Positions 56,297 to 56,752 of a DNA stretch of 64,000 nucleotides are shown piece by piece. This DNA is from Thioalkalivibrio sp. ALJ3. Its GTDB lineage: Bacteria; Pseudomonadota; Gammaproteobacteria; Ectothiorhodospirales; Ectothiorhodospiraceae. The stretch lies in contig NZ_KB897905.1 of NCBI RefSeq assembly GCF_000377205.1, positions 244,586 to 308,585 of the forward strand, read 5' to 3'. The position numbers and the translations under genes were made by a program. Each line of letters opens with the position of its first letter. The stretch's first letter is position 1. Below the pieces are notes generated by a model. It did no database searches, had not been told where the DNA came from, and worked only from the letters and a program-made list of their open reading frames with translations.

Positions 56297-56400
56297 CGTT
56301 GTATGGCTGGGCCGGCAGGATTACGGCGCTGCGCGCCGCCCTTCGGGCCGCCGCCAGTGGCGGCGTTCTCTCGCGGCTACACCGCTCGAGTCGAACCCGG
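56297..56400 (-). repeat. tRNA-Gln 3' fragment followed by a 69-nt triple-hairpin insert
   Basis: Positions 56297-56322 repeat exactly the 26 bp that contain the tRNA-Gln 3' end and trailer at 56455-56480. At the point within the T-loop where TCGAAC should continue, a 69-nt block (56322-56390) intervenes, then TCGAACC resumes (56391) before similarity is lost. The block can fold into three hairpins (GGCGC/GCGCC, CGCCGCC/GGCGGCG, GCGG/CCGC) and is homologous to the insert at 56628-56695. Confidence 0.7.
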
Positions 56401-56461
56401 TTCTCATCCTGCCGGCCCTTTGGCCGGTGCCGCGGCGGCAAGCGCCGCGGGTCTCGTTGTA

Positions 56462-56536
56462 TGGCTGGGCCGGCAGGATTCGAACCTGCGCATGACGGGA
56501 TCAAAACCCGTTGCCTTACCGCTTGGCTACGGCCCA
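56462..56536 (-). tRNA. tRNA-Gln (anticodon UUG), CCA encoded
   Basis: 75 nt on the minus strand. The acceptor stem TGGGCCG pairs with CGGCCCA; the anticodon arm is ACGGG-TTTTGAT-CCCGT, with TTG at positions 34-36; the T arm GCAGG-TTCGAAT-CCTGC is intact; discriminator G and encoded CCA (56462-56464). The location prs–tRNA-Gln–ispE is conserved in gammaproteobacteria. It reads CAA codons, and CAG by wobble. Confidence 0.95.
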
Positions 56537-56614
56537 ATTACTCGTTACTGCCTGCCTCGCCCCTGCCCGGGTTCCACTTCCGGAACCTGATGGCGGATCG
56601 GCTGCCGCCGATCC

Positions 56615-56752
56615 GGGCCGGCAGGATGATGGCGCTACGCGCCACCCTTCGGGCGCCACCTGCGGTGGCGTGCTCTCGCGGCTACGCCGCTCGGGTCGAA
56701 CCTGCGCATGACGGGATCAAAACCCGTTGCCTTACCGCTTGGCTACGGCCCA
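56615..56752 (-). pseudogene. Second tRNA-Gln copy split in the T-loop by a 68-nt insert
   Basis: From 56752 to 56696 the sequence equals the intact tRNA-Gln from its 5' end through GGTTCGA. Then 68 nt (56628-56695) are inserted, after which ATCCTGCCGGCCC (56615-56627) completes the T arm and 3' acceptor; the last acceptor base is changed and no CCA follows. The insert forms three hairpins: GGCGC/GCGCC, CGCCACC/GGTGGCG (56654-56670) and GCGGC/GCCGC. Right after the acceptor comes a perfect 9-bp hairpin CGGATCGGC/GCCGATCCG (56594-56615). The gene cannot give a normal tRNA. Confidence 0.8.

Follow-up and report, generated by a model that had tools for sequence, protein, structure and literature searches.

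RtT units behind an intact tRNA-Gln gene and inside the T-loop of a chimeric tRNA-Gln in Thioalkalivibrio sp. ALJ3: possible miniature insertions into loops of RNA genes

For the repeats linked to tRNA genes, known since 1978, no origin has been accepted, and those found in tRNA operons have had no known function (PMC8144298). In Escherichia coli these elements, the RtT RNAs or tRNA-linked repeats (TLRs), are described solely in tRNA and rRNA operons. Some members of the family, the RrA/B/F repeats that follow 5S rRNA, yield transcripts, which have Hfq and CsrA as binding partners in vitro (PMC8144298). The copies described here share with the E. coli elements their sequence and fold, their place behind a tRNA on the same strand, the occurrence of tandem copies, and a 3' end of which 18-19 nt are identical to that tRNA. 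Beyond what is described for the E. coli TLRs, the units are also encountered in the T-loops of pseudo-tRNAs upstream of the gene, as well as in D loops, anticodon loops and dispersed repeats.

Small palindromic insertions in RNA genes or other genes include the Rickettsia palindromic elements and the intervening sequences of 23S rRNA, the hosts and targets of which are other than those of RtT; to our knowledge RtT has no sequence kinship to either. Miniature elements of the IS200/IS605 type and REPINs, which are moved by Y1/HUH transposases, resemble the RtT unit in being small and non-coding, with hairpins near their ends, and apparently also in inserting in one orientation after a short motif without target duplication. 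Unlike these elements, the RtT unit has a four-hairpin, RNA-like fold under selection, and neither its ends nor its target (after GA or CA in loops) could be matched to a known transposase.

The window, i.e., the whole stretch of DNA that was analysed, comprises 64,000 nucleotides of the 2.63 Mb genome of Thioalkalivibrio sp. ALJ3, and the locus lies in a gene order that we take, from reading of the proteins, to be prs - tRNA-Gln - ispE - lolB. The closest named IspE, with 65% identity, comes from a Thioalkalivibrio metagenome-assembled genome. An earlier note on this DNA had described two related inserts of 69 nt (56322-56390) and 68 nt (56628-56695), both flanked on the plus strand by GGCAGGAT and TCGAAC and separated by one intact tRNA-Gln, and this description was confirmed; ARAGORN placed the intact tRNA-Gln(UUG) gene at 56536-56462 and also called the tRNA body of the 56628-56695 copy as a tRNA. 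The active strand at the locus is the minus strand, on which the inserts start at the C after GGTTCGA and end before ATCC (56390-56322 and 56695-56628), and the order of transcription is therefore chimera (56752-56595), intact tRNA, and ordinary repeat (56428-56304). The features are collected in Table 1.

Table 1. Parts of the tRNA-Gln locus, in coordinates of the window
Feature	Coordinates	Strand	Evidence
RtT unit, 69 nt with four hairpins, in the ordinary tRNA-linked repeat	56322..56390	-	R1 match 63 bits
Complete tRNA-linked repeat of the ordinary kind (RtT RNA), behind the intact tRNA-Gln	56304..56428	-	RF00391 62.3 bits; z = -5.2
5' arm GGGCCGGCAGGATGAGAACC, inverted tRNA-Gln 3' end with two differences, pairs with the tail	56399..56418	-	
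Distal copy of the 26-bp direct repeat AATCCTGCCGGCCCAGCCATACAACG (tRNA 3' end and trailer)	56297..56322	-	
Proximal copy of the 26-bp AATCCTGCCGGCCCAGCCATACAACG, the 3' end and trailer of the intact tRNA-Gln	56455..56480	-	
Intact tRNA-Gln(UUG)	56462..56536	-	ARAGORN
5' body of the chimeric tRNA-Gln, from the acceptor 5' strand through TTCGA, without differences from the intact gene	56696..56752	-	
RtT unit in the T-loop of the chimeric tRNA-Gln, 68 nt	56628..56695	-	RF00391 40.2 bits; R1 46.9 bits (unit in R1 training set)
3' side of the chimera ATCCTGCCGGCCC, without discriminator and CCA	56615..56627	-	
Hairpin GGATCGGC-GGCA-GCCGATCC directly after the chimera acceptor stem, replacing CCA	56595..56614	-	

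The earlier note found no named family that fits, and here it has to be corrected: both inserts are copies of the RtT unit (Rfam RF00391; PMC8144298). Against the RF00391 covariance model, with a gathering score of 45 bits, the ordinary copy (56304-56428) scored 62.3 bits, i.e., above threshold, and the chimera copy (56610-56743) 40.2 bits, i.e., below it. With R1, a covariance model of the RtT unit built in this analysis from a training set that included the chimera unit, that unit scored 46.9 bits (E about 1e-7). The same tool matched the E. coli tyrT repeats to RF00391, R1 recovered the E. coli repeats at about 60 bits, and the layout of the ordinary repeat at 56.30-56.43 kb is shared by the tyrV repeat of E. 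coli. Since the RF00391 scores go together with a fit of both inserts to the structure common to 17 units, the inserts are not chance resemblances. A self-splicing intron was rejected, as no group I or II Rfam match was obtained in 54-60 kb.

The two copies in the window differ in kind. Both had been placed in a tRNA T-loop, which holds for 56628-56695 and not for 56322-56390, where one side is a tRNA 3' end and the other an inverted 3' end (GGGCCGGCAGGATGAGAACC) instead of tRNA 5' sequence. The ordinary repeat lies behind the intact tRNA on the same strand, and its last 26 bases are identical to the 3' end of that tRNA including the trailer. Since it opens with the inverted tRNA 3' end, its two ends pair in the manner of an acceptor/T-stem helix whose loop contains the unit, and the whole repeat folds as one structure with a z-score of -5.2 relative to shuffled sequence. 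In the chimera at 56.60-56.75 kb, which is situated just upstream of the intact tRNA-Gln gene, the unit lies in the T-loop, between the tRNA-Gln 5' body and what remains of the T-stem and acceptor stem (their 3' half); the terminal hairpin follows, of which the copies in relatives keep the stem and have a changed loop. As a whole, the chimera folds barely better than shuffled sequence (z = -1.5). In many tRNA-linked repeats, among them the one in the window (56399-56418, minus strand), the 5' part is almost exactly the reverse complement of the neighbouring tRNA T-arm (GGATTCGAACC, often GGATGAGAACC), so that the repeat RNA carries an antisense T-arm.

The fold of the RtT unit is conserved. 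The unit is about 72 nt long and reads C-hairpin A-GAAC-hairpin B-GGCCCGNAGGGC-GAG-hairpin D-GA(R)TA, and 146 units could be parsed into four hairpins with very different arms. In an alignment of 17 units, both window copies among them, 91.7% of the cells of the named structure were paired, compared to 31-41% in slid controls, part of this excess being built in because the structure was derived from the same 17 sequences. The compensated pairs are the stronger argument: the alignment contains 76 double changes, against 26.6 +/- 4.4 after shuffling, none of 500 shuffles reached its covariation score, and 16 of the 28 pairs have changes on both sides. The pair that the earlier note had seen to change together in one hairpin (CGCCGCC/GGCGGCG against CGCCACC/GGTGGCG) is indeed compensated, and its suggestion of selection on the folded form is borne out by the paired cells and the covariation over the 17 units.

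Further copies, the search for which had been proposed as a check, occur both in this genome and in many relatives. Eight RF00391 matches were obtained in this genome, at tRNA-Ser (GCU, GGA, CGA) and tRNA-Gln (UUG, CUG), and searches with RF00391 and R1 detected no unit away from tRNAs. RF00391 is present in 26 of the 40 genomes searched as relatives and in 66 of 369 genomes across the class; R1 at E <= 0.01 matched 168 of the 369, which is an upper bound, since one such match in Azotobacter (26.9 bits, in surroundings without tRNA or repeat-like sequence) looks like chance and was rejected. RtT matches were also seen in 24 genomes of one family belonging to another class of the phylum.

Of the 197 RF00391 matches that were read, 159 follow a tRNA on their own strand at a distance of up to 500 nt; by isotype these tRNAs are Gln (71), Ser (68), Tyr (10), Arg (6), Glu (3), and Val (1). 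The exact run shared by tRNA tail and repeat tail has a median length of 21 nt, compared to 5 nt with random tails of other isotypes, and it measures at least 14 nt in 84% of the 159 repeats and in 0% when these are paired with tails of other isotypes. When R1 was run over the retrieved loci, 260 distinct matches were obtained: 157 behind a tRNA, 26 in T-loop chimeras, 3 called as D-loop, 33 with repeat-like ends and no tRNA in the stretch examined, and 41 in no class of the script.

The T-loop chimera recurs. The 26 cases come from several families and represent the isoacceptors Gln(UUG), Ser(UGA), Ser(GCU), and Ser(GGA); each of them is located upstream of an intact tRNA of the same isoacceptor, at a distance of 43-98 nt unless more chimeras lie in between, and none carries CCA. 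At the prs-ispE locus 1 to 3 chimeras, in tandem, are present in the genus. Six different perfect stems of 6-15 bp were found directly after the acceptor stem in different chimera groups, and no such stem in other groups. Literature searches for tRNA T-loop insertions returned nothing relevant. Two unusual arrangements were observed besides these. One genome contains the 3' part of tRNA-Arg(ACG) three times, at spacings of about 1.2-1.3 kb, each time with a unit in the T-loop; in contrast to the other chimeras, these keep CCA. In another locus (L072, 3724-3954) a pseudo-copy of tRNA-Gln carries two additional inserts, one in the variable loop and one within hairpin A of its T-loop unit.

The recurrence of CCA-less chimeras beside the intact gene for four isoacceptors and in several families would suit a functional RNA, i.e., an expressed chimera with a decoy or regulatory role close to the tRNA gene, with the ordinary RtT RNAs as processing by-products or sponges. 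The strong selection on the fold, the clean stems, 6 bp or longer, that follow the acceptor stem in several groups, and the behaviour of RrA/B/F in E. coli (transcription, and Hfq and CsrA binding in vitro; PMC8144298) point in the same direction. We nevertheless regard this explanation as improbable: although the tRNA parts of the chimera are identical to the intact gene in many cases, they have decayed in some lineages (the D-arm in L071, several sites in L202), a simple scan of the locus for sigma-70 promoters and terminators gave no match near the chimera, and the repeats are stated to have had no known function (PMC8144298).

Between related genomes that have the ordinary repeat and those that lack it, the difference amounts to precisely one direct repeat, 26 bp long for G020 against G393 and 49 bp long for G012 against G006; in G393, which has no downstream repeat, the 26-bp sequence AATCCTGCCGGCCCAGCCATACAACG is single-copy. 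Such a difference fits deletion and insertion equally well. The duplicated tRNA 3' end of 19-26 bp resembles attL/attR, as expected of an integrative element that targets tRNA genes through att sites in the T-loop by means of a tyrosine integrase. That identity was rejected and appears highly implausible, as only about 150 bp, with no gene, cargo or integrase reading frame, separate the direct repeats, and the insertions, which cause no duplication, affect many different loops as well as non-tRNA repeats.

The variable length of these direct repeats, together with the 0 to 3 tandem chimeras, is in agreement with a second reading, in which ordinary tRNA-linked repeats undergo slippage or unequal crossing-over at short repeats (GGTTCGA, or the 26-49 bp of tRNA 3' end and trailer), the unit never moves alone at the locus, and the chimera is a by-product. 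The units in the window are alike and GGTTCGA is common to tRNA and repeat, and recombination between the two at this sequence could therefore have made the chimera without transposition; the window locus fits T-loop insertion and such recombination alike and does not separate them. As a general explanation, recombination alone seems to us unlikely, albeit the most serious competitor. The unit of a chimera may differ strongly from that of the local repeat, as in the tRNA-Ser(UGA) chimera of G001, and units in D-loops, in anticodon loops, within another unit, and in dispersed repeats with precise empty sites are left unexplained.

In 5' copies of tRNA-Ser at four loci the unit is present in the D-loop, where host CTGA or CTTA is followed by the unit and then by the remaining arm without AG, i.e., two host bases are replaced. 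In copies of tRNA-Ser(CGA) it occupies the anticodon loop, after CTCGA; elsewhere it is nested in hairpin A of another unit, or arranged in tandem. At two of these loci the tRNA-Ser region coincides in part with weak matches to the proteobacterial sRNA family sX4.

Two unrelated dispersed repeats give a clearer picture of empty and filled sites. In genome G146 a repeat of about 40 copies, without Rfam match at E <= 0.1, is host of the unit in some of its copies. More than 30 copies cross the junction without unit when searched with the joined flanks, and filled copies, six of which were read, match this query in two pieces that meet at the same base. Empty sites read CCTGA-N-ATCG (N = G, A or C) and filled sites CCTGA-unit-AATCG, so that one base at the junction differs in most empty copies. 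Over their 72 nt, five of the six units show no difference from one another and the sixth shows 1; the host flanks vary among the filled copies. In a comparison limited to DNA inside the host repeat, the closest left flank for four of the six filled hosts is that of an empty copy, not that of another filled one, and the left flank of L338 has 0 differences over 75 positions from the empty copy L358 and at least 3 from any filled copy. The second repeat, in G170, has 8 empty and at least 3 filled copies; its host sequence contains a long inverted repeat, in copies with and without unit. Both repeats thus offer precise empty sites without target duplication and with insertion after an A, and the coexistence of filled and empty host copies implies that the unit is separable from its host. 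Three histories would give the pattern in G146: several entries at the same point, copying of the unit to that point in very short conversion tracts, or its exact removal from part of the copies. Gene conversion between host repeats could likewise spread a unit, and exact loss from part of them is possible.

We regard membership of both inserts in the family and conservation of the fold as shown. Unit mobility is the best account of the loop contexts and the empty sites taken together; several of the loci that support it come from metagenome-assembled genomes. Our preferred explanation, which we hold to be probable without great assurance, is that both inserts are RtT units and that this unit behaves as a miniature non-coding insertion into loops and junctions, with additional recombination between tRNA ends. 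On entering a loop or junction the unit would keep to one orientation; it would come to lie directly behind an A, mostly that of GA, and the target would not be duplicated. Entry into a T-loop would give a pseudo-tRNA carrying the unit, as in the chimera, and entry into a fold-back copy of a tRNA 3' end would give an ordinary tRNA-linked repeat, as in the copy at 56.30-56.43 kb. Local recombination between repeated tRNA 3' ends would change the copy number and keep the tails identical to the neighbouring tRNA. The unit as such would be what moves, by a single-strand HUH/Y1-type transposase acting in trans or by an RNA-based route. A Y1/HUH mover is a guess by analogy with the style of insertion, i.e., no duplication, fixed orientation, and a short motif. 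Y1 transposase (PF01797) was found above cut-off in 15 of 16 unit-rich and 6 of 16 unit-poor genomes, a trend confounded by the mostly small size of the unit-poor genomes.

The very small non-coding mobile or tRNA-associated element that the earlier note had proposed is thereby retained in modified form, as the comparisons support a miniature mobile insertion that is restricted neither to T-loops nor to tRNAs. A finding of the inserts only at this locus, or at random sites without tRNA sequence, was to count against tRNA targeting; neither is seen in this genome, but in other genomes the second is seen in part, with units present in non-tRNA repeats, at one fixed point.

In its widest form, to which we would give even chances, the proposal is that RtT units constitute a miniature element that is class-wide, remains active, and inserts after GA where structured RNA genes expose a loop (the T, D and anticodon loops of tRNAs, hairpins of the unit itself, and other repeats), as single-stranded DNA or via RNA. 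The tRNA-linked repeats would then be the form trapped by tRNAs, and the CCA-less pseudo-tRNAs would arise recurrently beside the genes they copy. A mobile element that targets loops would account for the presence of repeats at many tRNAs as well as for the recurring pseudo-tRNAs that bear a unit, and its target choice, the hairpin loops of RNA genes, would be unusual. Moreover, the question of the origin of these repeats would become testable in strains that contain filled and empty copies of one repeat.
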